NCBI RefSeq assembly: GCF_004209755.1
Contig: NZ_CP035913.1
Span: 5,456,001 to 5,520,000, forward strand
Source of the DNA: Pseudoduganella lutea
GTDB lineage: Bacteria; Pseudomonadota; Gammaproteobacteria; Burkholderiales; Burkholderiaceae_D
Length of the DNA: 64,000 nt
Direction of reading: 5' to 3'
Shown: positions 2,856 to 56,536 of the stretch, piece by piece
Position numbering within the stretch: position 1 is the stretch's first letter
How the letters are laid out: the number at the start of each line of letters is the position of its first letter
Translations under genes and position numbers: made by a program
The notes under the pieces: model-generated
Told to the model about the DNA's origin: nothing
Database searches by the model: none
Seen by the model: the letters and a program-made list of their open reading frames with translations, nothing else

Positions 2856-2904
2856 GGGCTCGTGTCCACTTTGAGGCCTGACCCCGAAATCGGACACGGG
2901 CTCG
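2856..2904. repeat. Composite GTGTCC...GGACAC intergenic repeat
   Basis: The arms GGGCTCGTGTCC and GGACACGGGCTC flank an inner CCTGACCCCGAAATC segment. The same arrangement recurs at 9352-9549 and 56487-56536. It sits between the SDR stop and the GH97 start and does not encode protein. Confidence 0.7.
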
Positions 2905-2981
2905 GCTATGCCAGTTTGCTGTTCCGACTGTAGTTCCGATCGCAGCACGCTGCCACGGCAGCGCTTTTCATCGTTCGCCAC

Positions 2982-4934
2982 ATGAAACCTGCCTTGTTCC
3001 GGATACTGGCGGTGTCGGCCCTTGCCGCGCCTGCCGCCGCATTTGCAGCACCACCTTCCCAGCCTGCAGCACAAACCCTCACGAGCCCCGACGGCAAGCT
3101 GGCCGTCACCGTCGCGCAGACGAAAGAGGGCGCTGTCACCTACAAGATCGCGCGTGCCGGCAAGCCGGTGCTGCGCGAGTCGGCGCTGGGCCTGTCGTTC
3201 GACGGCGCCGATTTCACGAAGAAGCTCGCCGCGCAGGACGTATCGGCCGAGCGCACGGTCAATGAGCAGTACGAGCTCGTTTCCGGCAAGCGCCGCAACG
3301 TCACGTATGCCGCCAACGAACGCACGTGGCGCTACCTGAACGCGGCAAGGCAGCCGCTGGAGATCACGTTCCGCGTGTCGAACGACGGCGTGGCCTTCCG
3401 CTACACGGCCCGCGCGCCGCAGCTGAAGTTCACGGAAGAGGCGACGACATTCGCGTTCGCGCCGCAGGCGCGCGCATGGCTGCAGCCGATGTCGGTGGCC
3501 AAGACGGGCTTCGCGCGCACCAACCCGTCGTACGAAGAGCACTATCGCGTGGACATCCCCGTGGGCACGCCGTCGCCGCTGGCGGCAGGCTGGGTCTTCC
3601 CCGCGCTGTTCCGCACCGGCGACACCTGGGTTGCGCTGACCGAAGCGAACCTCGACGGCACGTTCCACGCCTCGCGCCTGGCCGCGCAGTCGAAGGGCGG
3701 CGTGTACCGCATCGCCGGCCCGGCACCGCAGGAAACATTCACCGATGGCGCGTTGCTGCCCACGGCGCAAGGCCAGATGACGACGCCGTGGCGCGTGCTG
3801 GCCATCGGCAGCCTGGCCACCGTCGTCGATTCCACGCTGGGCACCGACCTGGCCGCGCCGGCGCAGGGGCCGATTCCGGCCTGGGTCAAGCCGGGCCATT
3901 CGTCCTGGAGCTGGGCGATCCTGAAGGATGACTTCACCACGTTCGGCACGCAGAAGCAGTTCATCGACTACGCGGCCGACATGGGCTGGGACTACACGCT
4001 GATCGATGCCTACTGGGACCAGAAGATCGGCTACGACAAAGTAAAAGAGCTGGTGGAGCACGCGAAGCCGAAGAACGTGGGCATCCTCGTCTGGTACAAC
4101 TCGGCCGGCGCATGGAACGATACCGACATGAGCCCGCGCGGCAAGCTGCTCACTTCCGCCGACCGCCGCGCCGAATTCGCGAAGCTGCGCACGATGGGTG
4201 TAAAAGGCATCAAGGTCGATTTCTTCGGCGGCGACGGCCAGTCGATGATCGACTACTACGTGGGCATCCTGCGCGATGCGTACGATGCGCAGCTGCTCGT
4301 GAACTTCCACGGCGCCACGCTGCCACGCGGCTGGTCGCGCACGTGGCCGAACCTGGTCACCGCGGAAGCCGTGCGCGGCTTCGAGTTCGGCACGTTCGAG
4401 CAGAAGGACCAGGAGCCGATCGCAAGCCACGCGGCCATGCTGCCATTCACGCGCAACCTGTTCGACCCGATGGACTTCACGCCGATGGTGTTCGGCGACA
4501 TTCCCAAGATCAAGCGCGCCACACGGAACGGCTTTGAACTGGCCGAATCGGTGCTGTTCGTGTCCGGCATCCAGCACTTCGCCGAAGTCCCGCAGGGCAT
4601 GGCCACCGTGCCCGATTACGTGAAGGACTTCCTGCGCACGCTGCCGGCGCAGTGGGACGACAGCCGCTTCGTCGCCGGCGAGCCGGGCAAGTTCGCCGTG
4701 ATCGCCCGCCAGGCCGGCGGCAAATGGTACGTGGCCGGTTTCAACGGCGCCGGGCAGGATTGCACCGTCGTGCTGGACCTGGCCTTCATCCGCGAGTCCG
4801 GCAAGCTCGCCATGGGCAAGCTCATTACGGACGGCGCGACCGACCGCGCGTTCACGCAGGCCAATGTCGCCGCATCGAAAAAGACCAGCATCAAGCTGAA
4901 AGCACGGGGCGGCTTCGTCGCCGTCTTCGAATAA
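2982..4934 (+). CDS. GH97 family glycoside hydrolase (retaining alpha-galactosidase-like), exported
   Basis: This 650-residue protein has a signal peptide of about 23 residues ending near AAAFA. The N-terminal beta-sandwich spans roughly residues 30-280, then a (beta/alpha)8 domain begins at GHSSWSWAILKDDF, followed by a short C-terminal beta domain. GIKVDFFGGDGQ places D413 at the position of the nucleophile of retaining GH97 enzymes, and E462 in TAEAVRG fits the acid/base. That pattern points to the alpha-galactosidase-like branch rather than inverting alpha-glucosidases. In this locus it may remove galactose or a pyranosyl cap from arabinan or arabinogalactan chains; that role is inference. 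It is followed 20 bp later by the GH51 gene. Confidence 0.88.
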   Translation: MKPALFRILAVSALAAPAAAFAAPPSQPAAQTLTSPDGKLAVTVAQTKEGAVTYKIARAGKPVLRESALGLSFDGADFTKKLAAQDVSAERTVNEQYELVSGKRRNVTYAANERTWRYLNAARQPLEITFRVSNDGVAFRYTARAPQLKFTEEATTFAFAPQARAWLQPMSVAKTGFARTNPSYEEHYRVDIPVGTPSPLAAGWVFPALFRTGDTWVALTEANLDGTFHASRLAAQSKGGVYRIAGPAPQETFTDGALLPTAQGQMTTPWRVLAIGSLATVVDSTLGTDLAAPAQGPIPAWVKPGHSSWSWAILKDDFTTFGTQKQFIDYAADMGWDYTLIDAYWDQKIGYDKVKELVEHAKPKNVGILVWYNSAGAWNDTDMSPRGKLLTSADRRAEFAKLRTMGVKGIKVDFFGGDGQSMIDYYVGILRDAYDAQLLVNFHGATLPRGWSRTWPNLVTAEAVRGFEFGTFEQKDQEPIASHAAMLPFTRNLFDPMDFTPMVFGDIPKIKRATRNGFELAESVLFVSGIQHFAEVPQGMATVPDYVKDFLRTLPAQWDDSRFVAGEPGKFAVIARQAGGKWYVAGFNGAGQDCTVVLDLAFIRESGKLAMGKLITDGATDRAFTQANVAASKKTSIKLKARGGFVAVFE

Positions 4935-4954
4935 AAACCATATCAGGAGATCTC

Positions 4955-6490
4955 ATGATCAAGCGTACCATCCTCGCCCTCTCATTGGCTGTCTGCGGCA
5001 GCGCCTTCGCGCAGGTCGCCGTCACGATCGACACGGCCAAGCCGGGCCCCGTCATCGACAAGAACGTGTACGGCCAGTTCGCCGAACACCTCGGCACCGG
5101 CATCTATGAAGGCATGTGGGTGGGCCCGGGATCGAAGATCCCGAACACCAAGGGCTGGCGCAACGACGTGGTGGGCGCGCTGAAGGAACTGCGCGTGCCG
5201 CTAGTGCGCTGGCCGGGTGGCTGCTTCGCCGACGAGTACCACTGGAAAGACGGCATCGGCCCGCGCAGCAAGCGCCCGGTGAAGGTCAATACCAACTGGG
5301 GCAACGTCACCGAGGACAACGCCGTCGGCACGCATGAATTCTTCGACCTGGCCGAACTGCTGGGGTCCCAGGTGTACATCAACGGCAACCTGGGCACCGG
5401 CTCCGTGCAGGAAATGAGCGAGTGGATCGAGTACATGACGTCGCCGAGCAAGTCGACGCTGGCCGAGATGCGCCGCAAGAACGGCCGCGACAAGCCGTGG
5501 AAAGTGGACTTCTTCGCCGTCGGTAACGAGATGTGGGGCTGCGGCGGCAACATGAATGTCGAGCACTATACAAACCTGTACAAGAACGCCACCACGTTCC
5601 TGCGCGCGCCGAAGGAATACAAGCCGCAATTCATCGCAAGCGGCAGCCACACCGACGACGTGAAATGGTCTGACGTGCTGACGCGCGAAGTCAAGAACGA
5701 CATGGCCGGCGTGAGCTTCCACTACTACACGATCCCCACGGGCAAGTGGGAAGTGAAGGGCGCCGCCACCGGTTTCCCGGAATCCCAGTGGTTCAGCACG
5801 ATGCAGAACACGCTGAAGATGGACAAGTTCATCCGTGACAACAAGGTCGCGATGGACAAGAACGATCCGGAGAAGAAAGTGGGCCTGTTCGTCGACGAAT
5901 GGGGCACCTGGTATGACGTGGAACCGGGCACCAACGCCGGCTTCCTGTACCAGCAGAACAGCCTGCGCGATGCCGTCGTTGCCGCGCTGAACTTCAACAT
6001 CTTCCATGAACACGCCGACCGTGTGCGCATGACGAACATCGCGCAGATGGTCAACGTGCTGCAGGCGATGATCCTGACCGACAAGACGCGCATGGTGCTC
6101 ACGCCGACCTACCACGCCTACAAGATGTACGTGCCGTTCCAGGATGCGACGTCGCTGCCGGTCTCGCTGGAGAACAACACCACGTACAGCGCCGGCAGCC
6201 AGTCGGTGCCGCAGGTGAGCGCCTCGGCCGCGCGCGCCAAGGATGGCAAGGTGTACCTGGCACTGGTGAACACGGACCCGAACAAGGCGACCGAAGTCAC
6301 CGTCAACGTGGGCGGCGCCGCTGCAGGCAAGTTCGCGGGACAGGTGCTGACTTCGGCGAAGATGGACGCGCACAACACGTTTGAAGCGCCGAACGCCGTG
6401 AAGCCGGCGGCGTATGCCGCGCAGGCCGCGGGCGGCAAGCTGACCATCCAGCTGCCGGCGAAATCCGTGGTCGTCGGCTCGGTCGAGTAA
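4955..6490 (+). CDS. GH51 alpha-L-arabinofuranosidase, exported
   Basis: The 511-residue protein starts at ATG 4955 behind CAGGAG; longer upstream reading is only an open-frame extension. A signal peptide, MIKRTILALSLAVCGSAFA, precedes the mature protein. The (beta/alpha)8 domain carries the acid/base E192 (FAVGNEMWGCGG) and nucleophile E315 (FVDEWGTWY), both canonical for GH51. A C-terminal beta-sandwich covers about the last 130 residues. The expected reaction is release of terminal alpha-L-arabinofuranose from arabinan or arabinoxylan. Most GH51 enzymes are intracellular, so the signal peptide suggests periplasmic action here, which agrees with the furanose importer further on. Confidence 0.92.
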   Translation: MIKRTILALSLAVCGSAFAQVAVTIDTAKPGPVIDKNVYGQFAEHLGTGIYEGMWVGPGSKIPNTKGWRNDVVGALKELRVPLVRWPGGCFADEYHWKDGIGPRSKRPVKVNTNWGNVTEDNAVGTHEFFDLAELLGSQVYINGNLGTGSVQEMSEWIEYMTSPSKSTLAEMRRKNGRDKPWKVDFFAVGNEMWGCGGNMNVEHYTNLYKNATTFLRAPKEYKPQFIASGSHTDDVKWSDVLTREVKNDMAGVSFHYYTIPTGKWEVKGAATGFPESQWFSTMQNTLKMDKFIRDNKVAMDKNDPEKKVGLFVDEWGTWYDVEPGTNAGFLYQQNSLRDAVVAALNFNIFHEHADRVRMTNIAQMVNVLQAMILTDKTRMVLTPTYHAYKMYVPFQDATSLPVSLENNTTYSAGSQSVPQVSASAARAKDGKVYLALVNTDPNKATEVTVNVGGAAAGKFAGQVLTSAKMDAHNTFEAPNAVKPAAYAAQAAGGKLTIQLPAKSVVVGSVE

Positions 6491-6494
6491 GCGC

Positions 6495-8050
6495 ATGAAG
6501 ACAGGAACGCTTGCGGCCTCGCTGGCCGCGGCGGGCCTGCTGACCCTCACCGCCTGTGGCGGTGGGGCGGCAGCGACTCGCCCGCCACGAATTCACCCAC
6601 CGTGACACCACCCGTCGTGACCACGCCCACGACGCCGACCACGCCCACCACGCCGACGGCCCCCGTGCAGACGCCGGTCACGTTCGCCAATGTCGGCGTG
6701 CACGACCCTTCCGTCGTGCGTGTCGACGGCACGTTCTACATCTTCGGTTCGCACCTTGCCGCGGCAAAGTCCACGGACCTGATGAACTGGACGAAGATCG
6801 CCGACGGCGCCACCGCCACCAATCCGCTGTTCGCGGACGTGACGAAGGCGCTGGCGGAGACATTCGCCTGGGCGCAATCGAATACGCTGTGGGCGCCGGA
6901 CGTGATCCGGCTCGACGATGGCAAGTTCTATTTCTACTACAACGCCTGCAAGGGCGATTCGCCCCGTTCAGCGCTGGGCGTGGCGGTGGCCGACAGGATC
7001 GAAGGCCCGTACGTGGACAAGGGCATCATCCTGAAGTCCGGCATGTGGGGCGAGGCCGGTGCCGACGGCACGATCTACGACGCGGTGAAACACCCGAACG
7101 TGGTCGACCCGCAGGTCTTCCGCGACAAGGACAACAAGCTGTGGATGATCTACGGATCCTACTCGGGCGGCATCTTCATCCTGGCGATGGACCCGGCCAC
7201 CGGCAAGCCGCTGCCGGGCCAGGGCTACGGCAAGCACCTGCTGGGCGGGAACCATGCGCGCATCGAAGGCGCGTACGTGCAGTACAGCCCCGAGAGCGGC
7301 TACTACTACCTGTTCACGTCGTTCGGCGGGCTCGATGCGAATGGTGCCTACAACGTGCGCGTGGCCCGTTCACGCAATGCCAACGGCCCCTACGTGGATG
7401 CGAAGGGCACCGACATGTCGACCGTGAAATCGGATCCATCGAAGCCGCTGTTCGACGACGCCAGCATCGCGCCGCACGGCCAGAAGCTGATGGGCAACCA
7501 CCAGTTCGCGCTGGCCGCCGGTGAAACCGGCACGGCCGCCGGCTATGTTTCGCCTGGCCACAACAGCACGTACTACGATCCGGCCACGAAGCAGTACTTC
7601 ATCATTTTCCACGCCCGCTTCCCTGGTACCGGGGAATTCCATGAAGTGCGCACGCACGAGATGTTCATCAACGAGGATGGCTGGCCGGTGGTGGCGCCGT
7701 TCCGCTACGTGCCGCTGGGCCAGGCGGCCGGTGCGCCATCGGCAACGGTCGCCGCCGCCGATGTCGCCGGTTCGTACAAGCTGGTCAACCACGGCAAGGA
7801 CATTTCGGCAGCCATCAAGCAGTCGCAGTCCATTACGCTGTCGGCCGACGGCAAGGTGTCGGGAGCGGTATCGGGCACGTGGACGCACAAGGGCAGCAAC
7901 CGCATCGCGCTGGCCATTGATGGCACGGCGGCCGCCTACAGCGGCGTGCTGTCGCGTCAATACAATGCCAACGCGAATGCGTTCACGGTGACGTTCTCCG
8001 CGCAGAATGCGGACGGGGTGTCGCTGTGGGGTGCCAGGACGGGCAACTGA
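6495..8050 (+). CDS. GH43 arabinan-degrading lipoprotein, frameshifted near its start
   Basis: ATG 6495 opens a lipoprotein signal (MKTGTLAASLAAAGLLTLTAC, lipobox LTAC), but that frame stops at about 6603. The GH43 body is in another frame, readable back to about 6572 as SDSPATNSPTVTPP and a Thr/Pro linker. One missing G in the run at 6564-6567 joins the frames; with it the gene is 1557 nt, 518 residues. The catalytic body has the GH43 aspartates (VGVHDPS, VVDPQVF) and glutamate (RIEGAYV). The C-terminal ~90 residues form a small beta domain often attached to arabinanases. The expected activity is cleavage of alpha-1,5-arabinan at the cell surface. As sequenced, translation would have to begin at GTG 6602 without an export signal. 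A sequencing error is possible. Confidence 0.82.
6558..6572 (+). other. Probable single-base deletion in G-rich tract of the GH43 lipoprotein gene
   Basis: The signal-peptide frame and the catalytic-domain frame differ by one net missing base. The tract GGCGGTGGGGCGGC would restore Cys-Gly-Gly-Gly-Gly-Gly-Ser-Asp if one G were added to the four-G run. Confidence 0.65.
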
Positions 8051-8136
8051 GGCAGCGTTAGCGAAGCAGTTAACTGAAGCGAATGCCGTGCGCAGGGGTT
8101 TCCCCGGTCCGCATGCATTTACTCCAAGAGCGTGAG

Positions 8137-8240
8137 GCTGGGGTCAGGGAGGAGTGCTGGCATGCATGCCAGCACCGTTCCGCGGGCGCGAAGCATGCTT
8201 CCCGAAACCCCCGCTTCACCCCGCCGGGTCTGACCCCAGC
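8137..8240. repeat. Nested palindromic element bracketed by GCTGGGGTCAG / CTGACCCCAGC
   Basis: Exact 11-bp inverted arms lie at 8137-8147 and 8230-8240. Inside is a perfect 22-bp palindrome at 8154-8175 (GTGCTGGCATGC centre) and a smaller AAGCATGCTT palindrome at 8191-8200. The element fills most of the gap between two GH43 genes. Its outer arms share the GGGGTCAG/CTGACCCC core with repeats at 21004-21058. Confidence 0.7.
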
Positions 8241-8316
8241 AGTTCGCGGCTGGGTGTCATGTATGCGTTCCCAGCGCACGAGCAAGTGCGGCAAGAGTAA
8301 TAGAAGGAGATATGCA

Positions 8317-9342
8317 ATGAAGTATCGCAGTTTTGTATTGGCGGCCGCGCTGCTGGCGGGCACCGCCAGTGCCCAGGCCACGCAGGTCGGCGTGCACGAC
8401 CCGGTGATGGCGAAGGATGGCAAGACGTATTACGTGTTCTCCACCGGCCCGGGCATCACGTTCTACAGCTCGAAGGACATGAAGAACTGGCGCTCTGAAG
8501 GCCGCGTGTTCGCGCAGGACCCGGTGTGGGCGAAGACGGCGGCACCGTCGTTCGACGGCCATATCTGGGCGCCGGACATCGTGCACCGCAACGGCAAGTA
8601 CTATCTGTACTACTCGGTGTCGGGCTTCGGCAAGAACACGTCCGGCATGGGCGTGACGGTCAACAAGACGCTGGACCCGCGTTCGCCTGACTACAAGTGG
8701 GAAGACCAGGGCATGGTGATCCAGTCCGTGCCGGGCCGCGACCTGTGGAATGCGATCGACCCGGCCGTCATCGCCGATGAACAGGGCAATGGCTGGATGT
8801 CGTTCGGTTCGTTCTGGACGGGACTGAAGTTGTTCAAGCTGAACGCCGACTGGACGAAACCGGCCGAGCCGCAGGAATGGCACACGATCGCGCGGCGCGA
8901 GCGCCCCGCGTTCGAACCGGACGAATCGGCCGCGCCTGCGGAGATCGAGGCACCGTTCATCTTCCGCAAGAACGGCTACTACTACCTGTTCGCTTCGTGG
9001 GGCCTGTGCTGCAAGAAGGAGCAGAGCACCTATCACGTGGTCGTCGGCCGGTCAAAGGCCATCACCGGGCCCTACCTGGACAAGGACGGCAAGGACATGG
9101 CCAAGGGCGGCGGCTCGCTCGTCATCAAGGGCAACCGCGAGTGGGTGGGCCTGGGCCACAACAGCGCCTATACGTTCGACGGCCGCGACGTGCTCGTGCT
9201 GCATGCGTACGAAACCGCCGATGACTACCGCCAGAAGCTGAAGGTGCTCGACATGAAGTGGGATGGCGCCGGCTGGCCGGTCGTCGACCCCGAGCAACTG
9301 AACAGCTACCAGAGCGTGCTGCTGCCGGCCGGCGGCAAGTAA
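8317..9342 (+). CDS. GH43 endo-alpha-1,5-L-arabinanase, exported
   Basis: The protein has 341 residues with the signal peptide MKYRSFVLAAALLAGTASAQA. ATG 8317 follows AAGGAGA at 8304-8310; the ATG at 8312 is in a dead frame. The five-bladed propeller shows the three GH43 acids: D in VGVHDPV, D in NAIDPAVI, and E in EIEAPFIF. NGWMSFGSFWTG and GYYYLFASWG are typical of endo-arabinanases. It should cut the alpha-1,5-arabinan backbone in the periplasm or outside the cell. It shares the operon-like + orientation with the GH51 and GH127 genes but is separated from both by palindromic repeats. Confidence 0.88.
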   Translation: MKYRSFVLAAALLAGTASAQATQVGVHDPVMAKDGKTYYVFSTGPGITFYSSKDMKNWRSEGRVFAQDPVWAKTAAPSFDGHIWAPDIVHRNGKYYLYYSVSGFGKNTSGMGVTVNKTLDPRSPDYKWEDQGMVIQSVPGRDLWNAIDPAVIADEQGNGWMSFGSFWTGLKLFKLNADWTKPAEPQEWHTIARRERPAFEPDESAAPAEIEAPFIFRKNGYYYLFASWGLCCKKEQSTYHVVVGRSKAITGPYLDKDGKDMAKGGGSLVIKGNREWVGLGHNSAYTFDGRDVLVLHAYETADDYRQKLKVLDMKWDGAGWPVVDPEQLNSYQSVLLPAGGK

Positions 9343-9351
9343 GCGACTGCC

Positions 9352-9397
9352 GAGCCCGTGTCCACCATGGGGTCAGGCCTCAAATCGGACACGAACT
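9352..9397. repeat. Composite GTGTCC...GGACAC repeat, copy 1 of 3
   Basis: GAGCCCGTGTCC and GGACACGA flank an inner GGGGTCAGGCC. This orientation of the inner core is opposite to that of the copy at 9416-9463. Confidence 0.7.
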
Positions 9398-9415
9398 GAA
9401 CTGTCACCAAGGATA

Positions 9416-9463
9416 AGCTCGTGTCCACTTTCGTGCCTGACCCCGAGGTGGACACAGCCTGAA
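9416..9463. repeat. Composite GTGTCC...GGACAC repeat, copy 2 of 3
   Basis: GCTCGTGTCC and GGACACAGCC flank GCCTGACCCCGAGG. It is nearly the inverse of the neighbouring copy 1. Confidence 0.7.
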
Positions 9464-9501
9464 CCGTTGCTGCTCTGCGTAAAACCGTGGCGGCAATTGA
9501 T

Positions 9502-9549
9502 GAGCCCGTGTCCGATTTTGGGGTTGACCCCAAGGTGGACACGGGCTGA
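9502..9549. repeat. Composite GTGTCC...GGACAC repeat, copy 3 of 3
   Basis: The outer arms GAGCCCGTGTCC and GGACACGGGCT are near-perfect inverses, and the inner GGGGTTGACCCC is itself palindromic. It ends 17 bp before the GH127 start codon, close enough to influence translation or transcription of that gene. Confidence 0.75.
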
Positions 9550-9566
9550 ACTTTAGGGAATTGAAC

Positions 9567-11909: not shown

Positions 11910-12055
11910 CAAAAAAGATATGGCAGACTGATAAAAATATATTGGTTCGGCATGGCAATTTCTTCTACCATAGCCGCAAAAGAATAATGGCATTCGCCCA
12001 TATTGCATGGATCGTCTGCTTCCGCAATCGCACCATCCACAGCACGGAGACACGC

Positions 12056-13018: not shown

Positions 13019-13020
13019 GC

Positions 13021-16621: not shown

Positions 16622-16631
16622 GGAGTTTTAG

Positions 16632-17606: not shown

Positions 17607-17617
17607 GCAGCCGCGCA

Positions 17618-17638
17618 GCCCCCGTTCGCGGGGCTTTT
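17618..17638 (+). terminator. Intrinsic terminator after importer/GH43 cluster
   Basis: The stem GCCCC/GGGGC with a 7-base loop is followed by TTTT. The U-tract is short, so termination may be partial; the next GH43 gene starts 34 bp later. Confidence 0.55.
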
Positions 17639-17671
17639 CCTTTGCAACGACATTCCTGGACTGGAGACACC

Positions 17672-20977: not shown

Positions 20978-21003
20978 TTCGCTGCCGAAAAGTTGCCAAA
21001 AAC

Positions 21004-21058
21004 CGGGGTCAGACCCCGATTTTTGGAAAGATTTCCTGGGATTGGGGTCTGACCCCGA
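21004..21058. repeat. Paired GGGGTCnGACCCC palindromes
   Basis: GGGGTCAGACCCC at 21005-21017 and GGGGTCTGACCCC at 21044-21056 are each palindromic around one base and are inverses of each other. They lie about 25 bp apart with T-rich and A-rich flanks. The pair sits between the DUF3422 gene and a phytase-like gene. Confidence 0.75.
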
Positions 21059-21119
21059 ATGTGCTGTTGTTGGTATGCCACGTTTGCGAGCCTCTGCGAT
21101 AATGCGGCGTTGACTGGAC

Positions 21120-22265
21120 ATGCGGGATGCCATGGAGCGTTTGACGATGTGGGCGGTGGTGCTGTGCCTGGCCGGGTGTGCGGCGGGGGAGGTGGTGCCT
21201 GCCGGGCGGGATGTGGCGGCGCTGCGCTTCATCGGCGAGCAGCGCATCGCGTGGAAGGCGCAGTTCCAGGGGACCACGATCGGCGGCCTGTCCGGCATCG
21301 ACTACGATGCGGCGAACGGCAGCTGGATCCTGGCCAGCGACGACCGTTCCGCCACCAATCCCGCGCGCTTCTACCGTGCCACGCTGCGCTTCACGCCATC
21401 GTCGTTCGATGCGGTGGAACTGACCGCCGTGCGTTATTTCCGCCAGGGCGACGGCAGCACGTATCCGGTGGAGCACGAGCGCGCGCAGGCCGGCGGGGTG
21501 GTGGCCGATATCGAATCGGCGCGCATCGATCCCCGTGACGGCACGATCTGGTACACGAGCGAGGGCGATGGCCGCCTTGGCCTCGATCCGTTCCTGCGCC
21601 AGGCCGACGCCGCCGGCCTGCTGCGCGCGGAGCTGCCGCTGCCGGCGTCGCTGCGCGAGTGGCCCGGCCACGAACGAGGGGTGCGCAACAACCTCAACCT
21701 GGAGGGCCTGTCGTTCGCGCCGGACGGCGCGAGCCTGTGGCTGGCGCTCGAGGCGCCGCTGGTGGAGGATGGCCTGCCGCCGACGCTGGACCATGGGGCG
21801 CCGGCCCGCATCACGCACCTCGATCGCGCCGGCAAGGTGCTGGCCCAGTATGCCTACCCGATCGGCGCCATTCCGGCACGGCCGGGCAATGGCATGGCTG
21901 CCGACACGGGCATTTCCGAGATCCTCGCCACCGGCCCGCGCACGCTGCTGGTGCTGGAGCGCTCGGCGGTGCAGGGCGACGAAGGCCGCTATCGCAACCA
22001 TATCCGCCTGTACGAGGCGGACCTGCGCCAGGCGAGCGACATTCGCGGCGTGCCGGCGCTGGCCGGGGCCACGTTTGCGCCCGCTGCCAAGCGCCTGGTG
22101 CTGGATTTTGCCGCACTCGGCCTGCCGATGCTCGACAATGTCGAGGGCTTCGCCTTCGGCCCGCCGCTGCCGAACGGGCATGCCACGCTGGTCTTCGTCA
22201 CGGACGACAATTTCAGCAAGCGCCAGGTCACGCAGCTGCTGCTGTTCGAAGTCCTCCCTCCATGA
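21120..22265 (+). CDS. Phytase-like esterase-domain lipoprotein
   Basis: The 381-residue protein has a lipoprotein-like N-terminus (VVLCLAGCAAG) and then a phytase-like beta-propeller domain (GLSGIDYDAANGSWILASDD, LNLEGLSFAPDG, VEGFAFGPPLPNG). Members of this family are exported proteins annotated as having esterase-like activity; true phytase activity is rarely shown. ATG 21120 and ATG 21132 are both possible starts. The gene stands alone between a palindromic repeat and the next kinase gene. Confidence 0.82.
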   Translation: MRDAMERLTMWAVVLCLAGCAAGEVVPAGRDVAALRFIGEQRIAWKAQFQGTTIGGLSGIDYDAANGSWILASDDRSATNPARFYRATLRFTPSSFDAVELTAVRYFRQGDGSTYPVEHERAQAGGVVADIESARIDPRDGTIWYTSEGDGRLGLDPFLRQADAAGLLRAELPLPASLREWPGHERGVRNNLNLEGLSFAPDGASLWLALEAPLVEDGLPPTLDHGAPARITHLDRAGKVLAQYAYPIGAIPARPGNGMAADTGISEILATGPRTLLVLERSAVQGDEGRYRNHIRLYEADLRQASDIRGVPALAGATFAPAAKRLVLDFAALGLPMLDNVEGFAFGPPLPNGHATLVFVTDDNFSKRQVTQLLLFEVLPP

Positions 22266-35793: not shown

Positions 35794-35812
35794 GCTTTCC
35801 ACGCAAACAAAC

Positions 35813-35877
35813 TGGGGACGTACCCTGGTTTAGAGGCAATAGATTGCCGCTAAACAGGGGTACGTCCCCATTTTTTT
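35813..35877. repeat. GGGGACGTACCC long hairpin with T-tail
   Basis: Arms of about 20 bases (35813-35832 and 35851-35870; left TGGGGACGTACCCTGGTTTA) enclose an inner hairpin GGCAATAGATTGCC. Seven T residues follow, so it probably also terminates cheV transcription. The outer core GGGGTACGTCCCC recurs at 35924 and 39999. Confidence 0.75.
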
Positions 35878-35917
35878 CGTCCCCGTTTTCGTGCGATCCG
35901 GGGTGGGTTATTGCCTG

Positions 35918-35945
35918 AAAACAGGGGTACGTCCCCAGTTTTTCT
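35918..35945. repeat. Single GGGGTACGTCCCC repeat copy
   Basis: The core at 35924-35936 is flanked by AAAAC and GTTTTT. It lies just upstream of the DJ-1 gene and repeats the right arm of the preceding hairpin. Confidence 0.7.
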
Positions 35946-35986
35946 TGGTGTTATGATTGCCTTTCGTTCAACGAAGGGAGGCTAGC

Positions 35987-39982: not shown

Positions 39983-39990
39983 TAGTTGCT

Positions 39991-40019
39991 CTAAAAATGG
40001 GGTACGTCCCCATTTTTAG
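39991..40019. repeat. GGGGTACGTCCCC hairpin with A/T flanks
   Basis: CTAAAAATGGGG and CCCCATTTTTAG are exact inverses around TACGT. The hairpin sits 8 bp after the ybdK stop and could act as a bidirectional terminator. Confidence 0.8.
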
Positions 40020-40036
40020 GGCAACATTTAGGGCCT

Positions 40037-40084
40037 GGTGTCGGACACTTTTTCCGGCTTTTTGGAAAAGGTGTCCGACACCGG
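40037..40084. repeat. GTGTCGGACAC / GTGTCCGACACC hairpin pair
   Basis: GGTGTCGGACAC at 40037-40048 and GGTGTCCGACACC at 40070-40082 are inverse copies separated by TTTTTCCGG...GGAAAA. The whole can fold into one long stem. Confidence 0.8.
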
Positions 40085-40112
40085 TTGTCCCCCGATGCAT
40101 CTGCGGAAAACC

Positions 40113-40163
40113 GGTGTCTGACACTATTTCCGGATGAGTCGCCCGGAAATAGTGTCAGACACC
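40113..40163. repeat. Perfect 21-bp-arm hairpin with GTGTCTGACAC core
   Basis: Arms at 40113-40133 and 40143-40163 are exact inverse complements (GGTGTCTGACACTATTTCCGG) around a 9-base loop. It ends 23 bp before the stop codon of the convergent amidotransferase gene. Confidence 0.85.
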
Positions 40164-40185
40164 AGGTATCGCGAAGGCCGCTGGC

Positions 40186-41121: not shown

Positions 41122-41152
41122 TCCATTCCTTTATGAGTGGCTATATGCGTGT

Positions 41153-46330: not shown

Positions 46331-46401
46331 GAGGACAAGGAAAAGCACGCTGTGTGTCCTAGCGTACTGACTGGGAAAGCGCCTGCGGGCATGCTGGTAC
46401 G

Positions 46402-47466: not shown

Positions 47467-47553
47467 TGCCCGCAGCAGTGAAGCAATCGAAGATGGCCGG
47501 CAGGTGTTGCAAATCGGTCGGGCGTTGTCCTACAGCCCCTGCCGCCGCGTTCC

Positions 47554-47665
47554 TATACTTGCACTTTTTCTAAACGTTCATGATGTGCATGCCGGCGTTA
47601 CGCGGCCTCGGCTTTAACGCCGTGGCAGTACACGCCGGCATCCATGAACCGATTAGGAGGGAGTA
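47554..47665 (+). promoter_or_regulatory. Structured leader of the Mn-catalase operon
   Basis: ATGCCGGCGT at 47589-47598 and ACGCCGGCAT at 47632-47641 are exact inverses, and GGCGTTA/TAACGCC forms an inner stem. A TATACT hexamer lies at 47554-47559. The hairpin ends shortly before the strong AGGAGGGAG ribosome site. Confidence 0.5.
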
Positions 47666-48622: not shown

Positions 48623-48623
48623 C

Positions 48624-49523: not shown

Positions 49524-49551
49524 ACGGCGGGGCGTCAATACGCCCGCGCGC

Positions 49552-50322: not shown

Positions 50323-50482
50323 GTCACGGCCTCGCGGAGGTCAGTATCCGCCTAGCATAGCGCGATCCGCCGAAGGTGCGCGCGCCGCAGGCATTCGGTC
50401 TGATCTGACGCCGGTACGAGGCGTGTGCCTACAGCCGGAATAGCCACCCATGCCAGAATCAGCTCTGAGAAGGGGGAAAAGA

Positions 50483-50902
50483 ATGACGACTGCATCGCTG
50501 ATCACACCGTTCCGGCCAGGCGACCGTGTGCTCGTCGCCAGCGCCGACCATGCACTGGCCGAAGCACTGGGCCGCACGTTCGGCACGGCCGGGTTCTCCG
50601 TGCGGATCGCATTCGATGGCGTGGCCGCGCTCGACAAGGCGCGTGCCTTCTTTCCGACCGCCGCGGTACTGGGCCTGGACCTGCGCTATCTCGACGGATT
50701 CCAGCTGGCCCGGGCGTTGCGCACGATTCCCGGCTGTGCGCGCATGCGCGTGCTGGCCCTGCTGCCACCGGCGATCGGCCTGCTGGACCGGCACCGCTGC
50801 TTCGACTATGTGCTGCGCACGCCGCGCGCCTCGCACGGCGGGCGGCCGATGTGGGTGGTCGATACCGACTGCCTCGGCATCCGGCCCACGCTGGTGCCCT
50901 GA
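50483..50902 (+). CDS. Degenerate receiver-domain protein
   Basis: The 139-residue protein starts at ATG 50483 behind AAGGGGG; the in-frame ATG at 50450 is less likely. It has a CheY-like outline (RVLVASADHALAEALGRTF) and the central aspartate position in LGLDLRYLDGFQLAR. The acidic pair at the start is missing and the lysine near the end is replaced in VLRTP. It is probably a phosphorylation-independent receiver. It converges on the LOV kinase gene, a possible partner. Confidence 0.65.
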   Translation: MTTASLITPFRPGDRVLVASADHALAEALGRTFGTAGFSVRIAFDGVAALDKARAFFPTAAVLGLDLRYLDGFQLARALRTIPGCARMRVLALLPPAIGLLDRHRCFDYVLRTPRASHGGRPMWVVDTDCLGIRPTLVP

Positions 50903-50959
50903 GTCATTCAGGCCAGGCGATCGGCGACCGGGCCGCTACACAAGACGCTACACAAGCCG

Positions 50960-52666
50960 CTACACGCTGGCCGGATGCGGCCGCGTATCCTGGCCGGCCA
51001 GCGCGCCGGCGATGCGCTCGAGCAGCTCGCTCTCCTTGTAGGGTTTCGGCAGCACCGGGAAGGCCGGGCTGCGCGCATCCGGCAGTTGTTCCATATAGCC
51101 CGTGGCCAGCAGGATCGGCAGGTCCGGCCGGCGCCGGCGCACTTCCTCGGCCAGCTGCAGGCCCGTCATCCCGCCCGGCATGATCACGTCGGAAAACAGC
51201 AGGCCGACCTCGTGCTCTTCCAGCAATTGCAGGGCTTCCTCGCCGCTCGCCGCCGTCACGATCGCATAGCCGCGCGCTTCGAGCATCGTCTGCCCCAGCT
51301 GGCGCACGTCCTCGTTGTCCTCGACGAGGAGGATGGTGTCCTTCACCTTGCCGTTGGTCCTGCCGGCCTGGTCCGCCGATTCCGGCGCGGCGCCGGCCTG
51401 GCCCTGGTCGGCCACGGGGAAGATCATGCGCACCGTCGTGCCGGTGCCGGGAGCGCTTTCGATGTCGAGGCGACCATGCGACTGCTGCACGAAGCCGTGC
51501 ACCATCGCCAGGCCCAGGCCCGTGCCCGGGCCTTTCGTGGTGAAGAACGGTTCGGTGGCCCGGCGCAGCACTTCCGGCGTCATGCCGGCGCCCTTGTCGA
51601 CCACGCAGATCACCACGTACTGCCCCGGCGGCAGGTGGTGGATGGCCAGGCGCCGCGCATCGGTCAGCACCGAAGTGCCGACCGTGACTTCGCCATGGCC
51701 GCCCAACGCATCGCGCGCATTGATCAGCACATTCAGGAGCGCCATCTCGAGGTGGGTGGGATCGAGCACGCAAGGCGGCAGGCCGGGCCGCAGGTCGAGC
51801 TTGAGCTGCACTTCCTGTCCCAATGTGCGCACGAGCATTTCGGAAAACTCGAGCACGAGGGCATTGAGGTTGATGCGGCGCGGTTCCAGCCGCTGCTTGC
51901 GGGCGAAGGTCAGCAATTGCTGCGTGAGCGCGCCACCCTTCATCGCGGCACGCTGGGCACGGCCGATGGCCTGCAGCGCCTGGGGCTTGGCATCGATCAT
52001 GCGCTGGGCCAGCTCCAGGTTGCCGTTCACGACCTGCAGCAGGTTGTTGAAGTCATGCGCCAGCCCGGCCGTCAACTGGCCGATCGCTTCCATCTTCTGC
52101 GCCTGCAGGTAGGATTGTTCATGGATGCGCCGCTGCGTGATGTCCATCTGCGAGGCGAAGTAATACCGCAGCTTGCCGGCCTTGTCGAAGATGGGGCCGA
52201 TGAACAGCGCGTTCCAGAACGGCGTGCCGTCGGCCTTGTAGTTCAGGATGTCGACCGCCACGGCGCGCTGTTCGCGCAACGCCTCGCGGACCTCGGCAAC
52301 GGTGCGCGGATCGGTGTCCGGCCCCTGGAGCATGCGACAATTGCGGCCCAGCAGCTCCGATTCCTGGTACTGGGTCAGGTCGAGCAGGGCGCCGTTGACG
52401 AATACGATCGGATCGTCCGGCTGGTTCGGGTCGGTGATCAGCATCGGCATCCGCGTCATCTCGACGGCGGCAAAGAAGATGTTGCCACGGTCAGCCAGGT
52501 CGGCGTTGTCGAGGTAAGTGGCCTGCCAGTGCCGTACGCCCGGATTGCCCAGCGTCGATACCGCGTTGCCTTCCAGTTCGCCGCACGCCAGTTTGCCGAT
52601 GACCTTGCCGTCGGCCTGTTGTTCGGTCGGTACGCTGGCGTCATCCTTCTGCCGTCCGATCGTCAT
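50960..52666 (-). CDS. LOV-type hybrid histidine kinase with receiver
   Basis: This 568-residue protein has a PAS domain at about residues 45-165 containing GRNCRMLQG, a close match to the LOV photoreceptor motif GxNCRFLQG. C110 is the flavin-adduct cysteine position. Then come HisKA with LAHDFNNLLQVVNGNLELAQ, an ATPase domain (KGAGMTPEVL, GTGLGLAMVHGF) and a C-terminal receiver (LLFSDVIMPGGMTG). There are no membrane helices. It should be a blue-light-regulated kinase. The methionine in place of phenylalanine may change photocycle kinetics; this is inference. Confidence 0.88.
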   Translation of the reverse strand: MTIGRQKDDASVPTEQQADGKVIGKLACGELEGNAVSTLGNPGVRHWQATYLDNADLADRGNIFFAAVEMTRMPMLITDPNQPDDPIVFVNGALLDLTQYQESELLGRNCRMLQGPDTDPRTVAEVREALREQRAVAVDILNYKADGTPFWNALFIGPIFDKAGKLRYYFASQMDITQRRIHEQSYLQAQKMEAIGQLTAGLAHDFNNLLQVVNGNLELAQRMIDAKPQALQAIGRAQRAAMKGGALTQQLLTFARKQRLEPRRINLNALVLEFSEMLVRTLGQEVQLKLDLRPGLPPCVLDPTHLEMALLNVLINARDALGGHGEVTVGTSVLTDARRLAIHHLPPGQYVVICVVDKGAGMTPEVLRRATEPFFTTKGPGTGLGLAMVHGFVQQSHGRLDIESAPGTGTTVRMIFPVADQGQAGAAPESADQAGRTNGKVKDTILLVEDNEDVRQLGQTMLEARGYAIVTAASGEEALQLLEEHEVGLLFSDVIMPGGMTGLQLAEEVRRRRPDLPILLATGYMEQLPDARSPAFPVLPKPYKESELLERIAGALAGQDTRPHPASV

Positions 52667-52823
52667 GGTTGCTCCTCCCGAGCCGTTGTTTTTTCAATGG
52701 GTTTGCGGCTCATCGTAAGGGCCGCGGGGGCGCTTCGCTGTTCGCGCGCGCACATATCCGCCACGGCCAGCCGTGCCGCGCCCGCCAACGGTTTTGCCTA
52801 CAATGTCGGCAACGGAGGACACC

Positions 52824-53753
52824 ATGGAAGAGAACCGGAACGAGCATCGCAGCGAAAGCCGCAGTGCAATCAGGAGCGAGACCCGCAGTGAGAAGGCAGA
52901 CGTGAGCGGCATTCGCAGTGGCGGCTACGAAGTGGCCCAGATCATGGGCGCGCTGTACGGCGATGGCTTCACGGCGCTGAAGGGGGCGTTTTCGCGCGAC
53001 TGGGTGCAATGCCTGCGCGAGGACATCGACACGCTGTTCGCGGAAGCGCAGCGCCAGCCCGGCGGCGCGCTGCCCCGCGGGCCCAGCCGCTTCTATGTCG
53101 AGATCCACCCGGAGCGCCTGCGCGGCTTCGCCGACATCATCACGCACCCATGGGTGGTGGCGGTATGCGAGGCCATCCTCGGGCCGGACTACCGGATCGT
53201 CGAAGCGGGCTTCGACGTGCCCGGTCCCGGCGCGCTGCACCAGCCATGGCACCGCGATTTCGCGAGCCCGGAAGCCACGCTCGTGGGGCGCCGGCTGAAC
53301 TCGCTGGCATTCAATATCACCACGGTCGACGTCACCGAGGACATGGGGCCGTTCGAGATCGCGCCCGGCACGCAATGGGACGACCTGGCCGGCGGCCACC
53401 ACATGTTCCCGGCCCAGGACCTGTGGCCGCGCTACGAGGCGCGCGCGCAGCGCAAGCTGGCGCAGATGGGCGACATTTCGGCGCGCTCGGCGCTGACCAT
53501 CCACCGCGGTACCGCCAACCGCTCGGACAAGTCGCGGCCCGTCTTCGTGCTCGGCGTGGATGCGCCGGACGGCACGAATGCCGACAAGCACGACCTGCAG
53601 GTCACGCGCGGCTATTGGGACAGCCTGCCGGAAGACGTGCGCCGCCACCTGGCATGCCGCGTCGTCGACCGGCTCGAGCCGATCGTGCAGGGGCATGCGA
53701 TCGCGGGCCTGCTGCAGGGTGTCGGCGAACCGACGATGGGTGGGCCGGGCTGA
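52824..53753 (+). CDS. Phytanoyl-CoA dioxygenase (PhyH) family protein
   Basis: The 309-residue start at ATG 52824 is chosen because GGAGG lies at 52814-52818. The 2-oxoglutarate/Fe(II) oxygenase facial triad is partly visible: HxD in QPWHRDFAS and a later His in ALTIHRGTANRS, with an Arg nearby. The first ~25 residues are an Arg/Ser/Glu-rich repeat (HRSESRS, IRSETRSEK) that is probably disordered. The family hydroxylates diverse small molecules; the substrate is unknown. Confidence 0.83.
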   Translation: MEENRNEHRSESRSAIRSETRSEKADVSGIRSGGYEVAQIMGALYGDGFTALKGAFSRDWVQCLREDIDTLFAEAQRQPGGALPRGPSRFYVEIHPERLRGFADIITHPWVVAVCEAILGPDYRIVEAGFDVPGPGALHQPWHRDFASPEATLVGRRLNSLAFNITTVDVTEDMGPFEIAPGTQWDDLAGGHHMFPAQDLWPRYEARAQRKLAQMGDISARSALTIHRGTANRSDKSRPVFVLGVDAPDGTNADKHDLQVTRGYWDSLPEDVRRHLACRVVDRLEPIVQGHAIAGLLQGVGEPTMGGPG

Positions 53754-53788
53754 AATGTCGGGTGGCGCGCAGCCGCGCCATCGCGGGC

Positions 53789-54511
53789 TTACCCGGCCAG
53801 CAGTCGGCCGACCAGCGCCGGCAATTCCGCCATCGCGCCGAACACGTGAGCGGCGCCCGCGTCGCGCAGCAGCTGCGCCTGGCCCGGCGGGCTGTGCTCG
53901 CCGCCACCGAAGCCCAGCACGGTGGCGCCCGCGGCCACGGCGGCATGCACGCCGGTCACGCTGTCCTCGATGACGATGCAGCGTGCCGGGGCGGTGCCCA
54001 TGCCGGCCGCGGCGGCCAGGTAAACGGCGGGATCGGGCTTCGGGCGGCCGGCGATGTCGGCCGTGTAGATGCCGCCTTCGAACAGCGGCGCCAGGCCGGT
54101 GCGCCCCAGTAATCCCTGCACGCGCACGTGGCGGCTGTTGCTGGCCACGGCCTTCACCAGCGCAATCGCCGCATAGGCATCGCGTACGCCCGGTATCGGC
54201 TGTGCCTTGCGGTCGCATTCGCCTTCCACCACGGAGCGCATCACGGCCAGGTCCGGCACGGTGGGTTCGGGCAGGCCAAGTTCGGCGCACACGCCGAGCA
54301 CGAGCGCTTCCAGCTTCAGGCCGAGGCGGGGCCGGATCAAGGCGGCAAGCGCCGCGCGGTCGGCATGCAGCGGCGCCAGGAAATCGACGAGCGCCTGCAG
54401 GGCCACGGCTTCGCTGTCGATCAGCACGCCGTCGCAATCGGAAATCAGGTGGGTGTATCGTCCGCCGAGGGTGTCGGTGAGTGCGTCGCTGCGTGGTTCG
54501 ATAAGCGTCAT
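53789..54511 (-). CDS. HAD-superfamily phosphatase (beta-phosphoglucomutase-like)
   Basis: The 240-residue protein has all four HAD motifs: DCDGVLIDSE near the start, SNS, KPDPAVYLAAA and VIEDSVTGVHAA. The cap between them is helical, as in subclass I phosphoglycolate-phosphatase or beta-phosphoglucomutase-like enzymes. It probably dephosphorylates a sugar phosphate or other small metabolite. It converges on the PhyH gene with 35 bp between. Confidence 0.88.
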   Translation of the reverse strand: MTLIEPRSDALTDTLGGRYTHLISDCDGVLIDSEAVALQALVDFLAPLHADRAALAALIRPRLGLKLEALVLGVCAELGLPEPTVPDLAVMRSVVEGECDRKAQPIPGVRDAYAAIALVKAVASNSRHVRVQGLLGRTGLAPLFEGGIYTADIAGRPKPDPAVYLAAAAGMGTAPARCIVIEDSVTGVHAAVAAGATVLGFGGGEHSPPGQAQLLRDAGAAHVFGAMAELPALVGRLLAG

Positions 54512-54602
54512 GCCCGGTCCGTCTGAAAAGTGACCGGACGATCATGCCATAACGGCGCGAATTGAACAGGCGTAACGGATCTCCCGGATAGGAGGGCGGC
54601 GC

Positions 54603-54953
54603 TCAGGCGCGGATGTCGATCAGCGTGCCGAGACGTTCGTCGGCGGCCTGGATCAGCTTGGCGGACAGGTCGAAGCCCGCCTTGTACATGAGGGAATTGG
54701 TGAGCGACGAGGCAAACGACGCGGCCGGGTCGGTGCCGGACGGCGCGCCGCCGACACGATCGGCGGCCGACAGGTCGCGCGCCGCGATCGACAGCGTGAC
54801 GCCGGTGCCGGCCGGCCGCGCTTCGTTGAAGCTGGCCGACTGGGGAACGAAATGATCGGTGTTCATGTTGGCGGTGTTATGCGCCTGCACGCCCAACGCG
54901 TTGACATTGGCTTGCAGTCCCGTCAAGCCGATGCCCAATGCCGAAATCGCCAC
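54603..54953 (-). CDS. Orphan flagellar basal-body rod-like protein
   Basis: The 116-residue protein starts MAISALGIGLTGLQANVNAL, with the helix and NTANMNTDHF turn shared by flagellar rod and hook proteins, and ends with a helical segment. It is shorter than FlgB or FlgC (about 130-150 residues) and has no flagellar neighbours. It may be a small rod-like accessory or a relic. The downstream segment DRVGGAPSGTDPA is poorly conserved in character. Confidence 0.72.
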   Translation of the reverse strand: MAISALGIGLTGLQANVNALGVQAHNTANMNTDHFVPQSASFNEARPAGTGVTLSIAARDLSAADRVGGAPSGTDPAASFASSLTNSLMYKAGFDLSAKLIQAADERLGTLIDIRA

Positions 54954-55287
54954 GAAGTTTTTCCCTCAAGAAGAGCCACCAGTTTACTGGAACCACGCCG
55001 TGGTGGCCCGGTTGATCCAGTCGGGCGCGGCAAGGGTGTCGTAAATAGGAGAAATCCACGGGAAAGCCGTGGATACCTCGGCAACGAGTTGGCTGAATGC
55101 CATGGCGGCTGCGCCGCCGGGAAGATGCAAGATGTGCGTGACTGACAATCCGGAGTTCCATAAAGCAACGAAATGGATGTTGCGAACGCGCAAAAGTTAC
55201 TCAGATTAATCTTTTTGGATTGCAATAGATGGGGATTGACACCAGAATTGGGTTATTGCCTTACGCCAATTTTCCCGAGAGTTTGCC
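54954..55287. other. Intergenic region with one hairpin
   Basis: About 330 bp with no convincing gene. ATCCACGG/CCGTGGAT forms an 8-bp stem at 55054-55074 without a T-tract. TTGACA at 55236-55241 is a perfect -35 hexamer, but the matching -10 is poor. Regulatory use ahead of the next hydrolase gene is possible. Confidence 0.45.
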
Positions 55288-56478
55288 GTGTCCGTATCGT
55301 CCCGCCTTCGCCAGTTTGCCGCCGTCCTGTCGAGCACCGTGCTGTCGTGCGCCATGCTGGCACCGTCCGCGGGTGCGCAGCAGATCCCCCTCGATACGCG
55401 CCTGAACGAGCAGATCGTGATGGTACCGGCCGGGCCGCGGATGAACGTGAAGCTCGAGACCACGCTGTACAAGCCCGCCGGCCCCGGCCCGTTCCCCCTG
55501 TTGGTCATCAATCACGGCAAATCGCCGGGCGATCCGCGCGCACAGCCGCGCGACCGCTTCGTCTACATGGCCACGCAGTTCGTACGCCGTGGCTATGCGG
55601 TGATGGTGCCGATGCGTACCGGCTTCGCGCATTCGGGCGGCACGTATTCGGACTTCGGCTGCAACATGAAGGCCAACGGCTACCAGCAGGCCGGCGATAT
55701 CGCCGACGTGGTGGCCTATGCGCGCGAGCAGGCCTATGTCGATCCGAACCGCATCGTCATCGCCGGGCAGTCGTACGGCGGACTGGCCAGCGTTGCGCTG
55801 TCCACGCAGGACTTGCCGGGCGTGCGCGGCATCATGAATTTCGCCGGCGGCCTGAAGGTGCACGGCGGCAGCTGCGACTGGCAGCAGTCGCTGGTGGGCG
55901 CCTTCGCCGAGTTCGGCCGCAAGAACCGCATTGAAACATTGTGGATGTATGGCGCCAACGACAGTTATTTCGGCCCCGCCCTCGTGAACCGCATGTACGA
56001 CGCGTTTTCCGCCAACGGCGGCAAGGTGCAGCTGGTGGCCTACGGCCCGTTCAAGCACGATGCGCACACGATGCTGGGCAGCCGCGACGGCCAGCAGGTG
56101 TGGTTGCCCGAAGTGGAACGCTTCCTGCGCCAGCTGGGCATGCCGACTGAGCAGGTGTATGCCGTGGCCGAGCCGGCACCGCGGCCGCGCACCAACTACG
56201 CATTGCTCGACGACGTGGCGGCCGTGCCGTTCCTGCCCGAGAAGGGGCGCCTGCAGTACAAGGCCTTCCTGACCAAGCAGACGCCGCGCGCGTTCGCCGT
56301 GTCGTCGTCCGGCGCGTGGGGCTGGGCCGAGGAGGGCGAAATGCCGAACGAACGCGCCCTGGCCGCCTGCCAGGCCGCCAGCCGCGAACCCTGCAAGCTG
56401 TACTCGGTGGATGACTACGTGGTGTGGGGCGAAGTGACCGAGCAGCCGAAGGACACGATGACGGGCCGCACCGACTGA
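55288..56478 (+). CDS. Exported alpha/beta hydrolase (dienelactone-hydrolase-like)
   Basis: The 396-residue protein starts at GTG 55288 and has a signal peptide ending near SAGA. The alpha/beta-hydrolase core has the nucleophile motif AGQSYGGLASVAL and an upstream oxyanion region (LLVINHGKSPG); an aspartate and FKHDAHTM supply plausible catalytic partners. The C-terminal ~120 residues are an extra domain. The substrate is unknown; esters or small polymers are plausible. Confidence 0.83.
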   Translation: MSVSSRLRQFAAVLSSTVLSCAMLAPSAGAQQIPLDTRLNEQIVMVPAGPRMNVKLETTLYKPAGPGPFPLLVINHGKSPGDPRAQPRDRFVYMATQFVRRGYAVMVPMRTGFAHSGGTYSDFGCNMKANGYQQAGDIADVVAYAREQAYVDPNRIVIAGQSYGGLASVALSTQDLPGVRGIMNFAGGLKVHGGSCDWQQSLVGAFAEFGRKNRIETLWMYGANDSYFGPALVNRMYDAFSANGGKVQLVAYGPFKHDAHTMLGSRDGQQVWLPEVERFLRQLGMPTEQVYAVAEPAPRPRTNYALLDDVAAVPFLPEKGRLQYKAFLTKQTPRAFAVSSSGAWGWAEEGEMPNERALAACQAASREPCKLYSVDDYVVWGEVTEQPKDTMTGRTD

Positions 56479-56486
56479 GTCCACAG

Positions 56487-56536
56487 CCGGGTTCGTGTCC
56501 ACCATGGGGCCAGGCCCGTTTTCGGACACGAGCCGG
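56487..56536. repeat. Composite GTGTCC...GGACAC intergenic repeat
   Basis: CCGGGTTCGTGTCC and GGACACGAGCCGG flank GGGGCCAGGCCC. It is the same design as the 2856 and 9352-9549 copies and lies just after the hydrolase stop. Confidence 0.75.

Follow-up and report, generated by a model that had tools for sequence, protein, structure and literature searches.

Short palindromes recur between the genes of a 64,000-nucleotide stretch of the Pseudoduganella lutea genome (hereafter the window; G000:C1:5456001-5520000, within a single-contig genome of 7,504,849 bases), and they comprise several families, not one element. Very probably, these families are non-autonomous populations similar to repetitive extragenic palindromes (REPs) and to REP doublets forming hairpins (REPINs), each tied to a REP-associated tyrosine transposase (RAYT) of the TIRYT type (tyrosine transposases associated with terminal inverted repeats, TIRs) encoded in this genome or, for the family denoted A, in congeners, with repeat letters that switch along with the RAYT lineage and with a second structured element inserted at the palindrome apex. 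The families, their copy numbers, the bracketing of RAYT genes, the co-distribution, the gap placement, and the covarying insert with its junctions were all observed directly.

Four families are present in the window: A (GGGGTCnGACCCC), B (GGTGTCnGACACC), C (GGGGTACGTCCCC), and composites of the form GTGTCC...GGACAC. The A family is represented by two exact cores (21005-21017 and 21044-21056) that make up a doublet with cores 39 nt apart (21005..21056; single-strand fold z -6.0) and by a third core with one mismatch (8225-8237), that is, 3 copies against 0.21 expected, a count matched in 1 of 100 shuffles. The four B cores, at 40037, 40070, 40113, and 40151, one exact and three with one mismatch (0.19 expected; 0/100 shuffles), form two doublets, 40037..40082 (first core with one mismatch; fold z -8.8) and 40113..40163 (both cores with one mismatch; z -10.9). 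The four C cores, three of them exact (0.04 expected; 0/100 shuffles), start at 35814 on the minus strand, 35857, 35924, and 39999, and comprise an inverted doublet (35814..35869; z -10) and two plus-strand repeats, 35924..35936 and 39999..40011, the latter within a hairpin with an 18-bp stem (39985-40025). Five composites, at 2862, 9358, 9421, 9508, and 56495 (0.01 expected; 0/100 shuffles), complete the set: 2862..2897, which resembles the repeats bracketing the RAYT gene L002 and folds weakly (z -2.1; 8/200 shuffles equally good), 9358..9392, 9421..9455, 9508..9542 (z -7.9), and 56495..56529. A whole-genome count, which the sequence-only reading had named as the check on its proposal, gave 72 exact copies of A, 143 of B, 89 (46+43) of C, and 69 composites (pattern CGTGTCCN{15,30}GGACACG), compared with 0, 0, 1, and 1 for the reversed patterns; one of the composite matches (G000:1739867) is a chance hit in coding sequence. 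The genome also contains 35 copies of a fifth family, D (GGGGACnGTCCCC), none of them in the window. The palindromes reported by that reading thus exist at the sites it named, far above chance by both window shuffles and genome counts, and, as it had stated, none interrupts a gene, all window copies being located between genes called by a codon model. The pair spacing, polarity, and folds of A, B, and C are those of two inverted repeats at short spacing, as in REPINs: 7 of the 10 A neighbor pairs are exactly 39 nt apart, the B spacing is more variable, and 19 of the 27 C pairs share one inverted polarity, with 38 of the 89 C copies single. No replication-strand bias of C was detected among the single copies, which number 8+/11- over one half of the record (the first) and 10+/9- over the other.

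The window itself encodes no Y1 transposase, as had been noted from the sequence, but five loci elsewhere in the genome (L001-L005) contain the Y1/HUH transposase domain PF01797 above the cut-off and are of the RAYT type. Alignment A2 produced six matches in this genome, four among the matches listed, with L005 and its two frames probably accounting for the others. Every piece tried matches NF047646 (REP-associated tyrosine transposase), L002 alone exceeding the cut-off and the others scoring lower. A transposase gene flanked by the same palindromes, which the earlier reading had proposed to look for, was found for three of the four window families. Composites lie on either side of L002 (288 aa), the downstream one within its own reading frame; C repeats lie on both sides of L003, and B repeats on both sides of L005, which is frameshifted into two overlapping frames. 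L001 is bracketed by D-type repeats, the repeats flanking L004 are weak, and no RAYT of this genome is bracketed by A. The downstream composite of L002 (L002:2238-2275) is situated at the 3' end of the frame, which reads on through it. On the basis of the motifs given in PMC6006769 rather than of its hidden Markov models, L001 (NHVH, YIELNP), L002 (NHYH, YIPLNP, with helix-turn-helix (HTH) hits below the Pfam cut-off), and L003 (NHLH, YIELNP) fit TnpAY1 subclass 2.1/TIRYT. A PDB sequence search with L002 yielded no match at E 0.01. The fourth paralog (L004:1402-2127; G000:3282351-3282926) has DQLH without the first His of HUH and YMEAAP without the NP of the Tyr motif and is possibly inactive; related forms of 230-260 aa are present in many congeners.

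The link between repeats and transposases extends across the genus. In a sample of 60 congener genomes including this one, NF047646 had matches in 60/60, and at least 134 RAYT loci, the best-scoring among the matches listed, were parsed, 133 of them with both flanks. Among these listed matches, inverted repeats bracket 105 of the 133 loci above the 99% level of shuffled flanks, although at least two of the 105 calls (L144 and L113) look by eye like coding similarity. In a protein tree of 48 short-RAYT loci and one fragment, the motif labels cluster, requiring 19 changes compared with a shuffled mean of 31.8 (0/200 as low); this count treats "no motif" (10 rows) as a label, and 13 changes are left without those rows. 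For single labels, A requires 8 changes compared with 12.4 when shuffled, D requires 1, and C 2, and the labels B (2 rows) and G (3 rows) do no better than shuffles. Copy numbers follow the RAYTs as well, though weakly for A: B has 75-221 copies in the 5 genomes with a B-clade RAYT versus a median of 1 in the 55 others (top 25, next 15), C has 38-89 copies in 4 genomes with a C-labeled RAYT versus a median of 0 in 56, D has 14-82 copies in 7 genomes that encode a D+A-clade RAYT versus a median of 0 in 53, and A has 2-239 copies in 13 genomes with an A-labeled RAYT versus a median of 7 in 47 (p=4.6e-4). The composites of two orthologous gaps resemble the RAYT flanks of their own species (0.862 within versus 0.640 between species), this pairing being the best of 5040 assignments and the species' own RAYT giving the best match in 5 of 7 rows, for RAYTs that were picked by hand, one composite-bracketed gene per species. 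The A-bracketed L192 and L185 group together with support within a clade otherwise made up of the D-bracketed L001, L077, L104, L133, and L157. The upstream hairpin of L192 recurs at L001 and L077 and, differing by one letter, at L104, which suggests that these four represent the same locus.

Several observations weigh against this interpretation. None of the RAYTs of this genome is bracketed by family A, whose copy numbers track A-labeled RAYTs only weakly, genomes without the label reaching 85 copies and this one 72; L005 is frameshifted, yet B has 143 copies; and the flank-repeat scores of L002 (10) and L004 (12) are below the threshold of 13.5, for L002 because its downstream composite sits inside its own reading frame. 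In the genus, 10 of the 48 short RAYTs have no labeled motif. The B clade was set by the tree, with B-labeled flanks in only 2 of its 5 rows, the others carrying H, J, or none; C has exceptions with 36 copies in G003 and 38 in G044; D has exceptions with 33 in G027 and 42 in G057, and the clade used in the D test includes two rows that are A-bracketed. Furthermore, related genomes are not independent, and the tests ignore kinship. For A, a precedent is available in the orthoswitch described in PMC3686654, in which a RAYT lineage changes the letters of its repeats and the old copies persist, and the presence of A without its own RAYT matches this pattern. Separately, GGGGACnGTCCCC cores at G027:C1:166114-166492 and other places in G027 are often 16-17 nt apart, not 39 nt, and the G027 RAYT, L146, has flanks other than GGGGACnGTCCCC.

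The placement of the repeats, and what they might do there, was examined with genes called by the same codon model. The 685 kb of own sequence covered contain 149 sites, of which 140 are in gaps, 3 are genic (one of them the chance composite), and 6 are at block edges; the sequence includes 40 own-genome blocks chosen around repeats, so that repeat densities there are biased. The 84 gaps with a repeat are convergent in 35 cases, tandem in 47, and divergent in 2, compared with 13.8, 49.1, and 21.1 expected by gap bases; a bias of REPs toward unidirectional and convergent gaps is known (PMC3733652). In seven congeners, a gap that carries a repeat here also carries one in 21 of 36 gap-genome pairs, compared with 6 of 115 for other gaps, and the family often differs between species. 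For the gap at 39983-40185, which contains C and B here, 30 loci were fetched, 26 with both anchors: B is present in G003, B variants in G044, A together with B in both G031 and G037, D in both G057 and G064, and palindromes of other kinds in G058 and G045. In G021, G016, G050, and G034, almost nothing of the gap is left (0-5 nt), and the rest have other or no recognized repeats. The gap at 20978-21212, with the A doublet, carries D repeats in 3 of 7 congeners and none in 4, and no repeat was found at 8051-8316 in the four congeners with data. Arguably, such a distribution could indicate that the repeats are retained because they act in cis at the level of RNA or transcription, mainly as bidirectional 3'-end terminators, with the RAYT link secondary. 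The strong 3'-gap bias, the near-absence from divergent gaps, and the recurrence of repeats in the same gaps, often from another family, all fit this explanation, as does the gap at 35794-35986, where by eye 4 of 5 congeners with data have an ordinary hairpin and T-run, and this genome and G003 have repeats. Substitution for terminators, as suggested by that gap, was nevertheless unsupported in a wider test on own sequence: other terminators are not scarcer in repeat gaps (convergent, 9/35 versus 8/28; tandem, 5/47 versus 20/175), and the terminator finder, which performs poorly on stems with A/T tracts, recognized the hairpins of the repeats in only 9 of 82 gaps. Given also that the letters track the RAYT more than the gap, we consider this explanation unlikely; the regulatory or RNA role that the sequence-only reading had left open found no support in its terminator form.

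That reading had also taken 8137-8240 for the arms of a palindrome. What lies there is an A doublet interrupted by a separate element rather than a single palindrome with long arms: the left half (GGGGTCAG; 8140..8147, plus strand) is separated by 70-75 nt from the right part (..GGGTCTGACCCC; 8218..8237, plus strand), which includes the one-mismatch core, and the space is occupied by a nested two-hairpin insert (8148..8217, plus strand; borders uncertain by ~2 nt). Thirteen aligned copies of the insert contain 21 pairs in three helices, with 96.7% of the cells paired. Covariation, assessed on the same sequences on which the structure was drawn, amounts to 47 compensatory cells versus 14.8 when shuffled (0/500 as high) and to a score of 0.494 versus at most 0.136 when slid; the excess of pairs changed on both sides is modest (11 versus 7.9 shuffled; 9/500), and further pair types are not above shuffles (20 versus 19.0). 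The covariance model R1 detected 18 clear copies at 57-102 bits in 1.085 Mb of own and congener sequence, with the next match at 22.6 bits; the window insert, one of the training copies, scores 96.8 bits over 8142-8233. Two further copies were found in L044 in a search of 100 RAYT and gap loci and two more in 400 kb of roughly evenly spaced own blocks, so the whole genome might, very roughly, contain a few dozen. Beyond the genus, the best match among 80 distant loci was 27 bits, a plasmid collection searched in distant mode gave no match, and the best Rfam match to 8051-8316 (E 4) was far below the gathering score.

By eye, 17 of the 22 clear insert copies are located directly 3' of a REP half whose end lies shortly beyond the palindrome center; nine of these halves are A-like, four composite, two B, one D, and one a C-like scaffold. 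Three copies are nested in another copy (L385, L044, and L267), and two are in no recognizable REP (L261:9344 and L393:16816). Thirteen of the 22 copies are the training set, which was found by letters without requiring a REP; the remaining nine comprise 5 located directly after a REP half, 2 nested copies, and 2 elsewhere. In synteny-chosen blocks, 9/9 inserts follow a REP half, and the evenly spaced blocks contributed one insert nested in a split C repeat and one not in a REP. In L385, a C repeat is split by an insert copy that is itself split by a second one. The region L261:9317-9434 is an array of similar hairpins with one 57-bit model match and no recognizable REP. An internally expanded REP form, or an independent structured RNA merely overlapping REPs, neither of them mobile, would account for the absence of a gene, known mobilizer, or resolved target duplication in the insert, for the degenerate right-hand REP half in several copies, and for the two copies outside any recognizable REP. 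It would not readily explain why the same covarying insert occupies the same relative point of A, B, D, composite, and C-scaffold cores, why it nests inside its own copies, and why an intact composite with matching letters is present in the same gap of G031, and we regard it as quite improbable; by inference, the insert is mobile. It favors the loop side of hairpins and its own unpaired bulge, which suggests targeting of single-stranded loops. We tentatively propose, with somewhat less than even confidence, that an apparently undescribed 70-75-nt miniature element parasitizes REP-type repeats of the A, B, C, D, and composite families one base past the center of the folded palindrome, as well as its own bulge, homing to loops perhaps via the resident RAYTs, and that the host repeats are TIRs of TIRYTs that turned into true palindromes and multiplied into several REP-like families.

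The sequence-only reading had suggested that the palindromes might be variants of one element, noting that the first two cores differ at one base pair. This difference holds for A versus B, and A and C share a scaffold and arm context (consensus TTTCC..AAAC[CA]GGGG...CCCC[GA].TTTT), with one own mosaic array (L271:9912) carrying an A core and a C core inside near-identical flanks; the A-bracketed L192 and L185 being sister to D-bracketed RAYTs, and the 8 tree changes required by the A letters, point in the same direction. A single element with one mobilizer is nonetheless very unlikely, because composites, B, and C bracket three separate RAYT genes in one genome, the motif labels cluster by RAYT clade overall, and the composites accompany another, HTH-tailed type of RAYT. 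Chance palindromes in a GC-rich genome are refuted by the 69-143 genome copies versus 0-1 for reversed patterns and by the window shuffles, and can be dismissed.

On the strength of published work with other RAYTs (PMC8266576) and of the co-distribution described here, we infer that the RAYTs move the repeats. Under the favored scenario of several RAYT-tied populations, a RAYT would recognize the folded single-stranded palindromes bracketing its own gene and copy or move family members into permissive intergenic 3' gaps; any shift in the specificity of a RAYT lineage would bring a change of repeat letters with it (orthoswitch), with the old copies remaining; and the smaller structured element would enter the apex of palindromes in several families, as at 8148-8217, where it splits the A doublet. 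In this genome, several REP-like populations accompany Y1 transposases of the subclass 2.1 kind, a large HUH group reported in the available part of PMC6006769 to be without REP-like repeats. With letters and copy numbers tracking the transposase across species, these systems offer a natural enzyme-substrate set for hairpin reading, and the apex insert is a case of a repeat parasitizing repeats, with junctions hinting at single-stranded loop targeting.

The sequence-only reading had likened the palindromes to REP-type elements moved by RAYTs, and the association of REP-like repeats with RAYT-type Y1 transposases bears this out; the GT[AG]G foot, however, was found at 0 of 149 own sites when both strands were searched up to 2 nt from the foot of the stem. 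Because of the missing foot and of the fit of the RAYTs to subclass 2.1/TIRYT, the repeats are REP/REPIN-like in behavior but not canonical REPs. In common with canonical REP/REPIN and RAYT (TnpAREP) systems and REPtrons (PMC2817692, PMC3686654, and PMC6006769, as far as the available parts of these papers go), they are multi-copy short palindromes, intergenic and abundant (69-143 exact copies per window family), with inverted doublets and gap placement, and the same repeats bracket a Y1 transposase, each RAYT having one family. Unlike in those systems, the RAYTs resemble subclass 2.1/TIRYT, not 2.2 or 2.5. In congeners G022, G015, G042, and G017, RAYTs that are 162-164 aa long (L029-L032) have canonical GTAGGGCGGA-type REPs on both sides, a RAYT type not represented among the five of this genome. 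Outside the genus, an Alcaligenaceae RAYT (L366) is bracketed by GGGGTCAGACCCCGTACGGGGTCTGACCCC, the A motif.

Our literature search returned no paper for the six 13-mer cores, nothing on this system for RAYTs or tyrosine transposases in Massilia or Oxalobacteraceae, and only PMC3733652 and PMC6006769 for TIRYTs and TIRtrons. The latter paper links TnpAY1 subclass 2.1 to the TIRYTs of the former, where TIR families are moderately abundant. Shared with TIRYTs and TIRtrons are the size of the Y1 proteins (200-290 aa), their NHxH and YxxxNP motifs, the C-terminal HTH in L002, and, in part, flanking inverted repeats with GGGGWSAS-like letters. By direct reading, these letters fit A (GGGGTCAG), D (GGGGACAG), and some composites, and not B or C; they are present in the bracketing repeat of 32 of 52 bracketed distant relatives (77 with both flanks). 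In contrast to TIRYTs and TIRtrons, the repeats bracketing short RAYTs here are mostly true palindromes with tens to hundreds of genome copies: true palindromes were found at 28 of 38 loci in the genus versus 6 of 48 distant loci (two of these six coincide with loci of genus member G003) and at 0/16 loci of the 233-aa RAYT type. For the apex insert, our search for inserts in REPs returned PMC1525189, which reports insertion sequence (IS) elements targeting REPs, and, among the matches listed, no description of the present insert; the specific insertion within REP palindromes is shared with those IS elements, from which the insert differs in its length of 70-75 nt, the lack of a gene, the covarying hairpins, and the range of several host families together with its own copies. 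Finally, sister RAYTs with different letters (A versus D) and a surplus family without its own RAYT are features in common with the orthoswitch of REP classes at orthologous RAYTs (PMC3686654, from the part available), from which the present case differs in RAYT subclass and taxon and in that, here, orthologous gaps are filled by different families between species.

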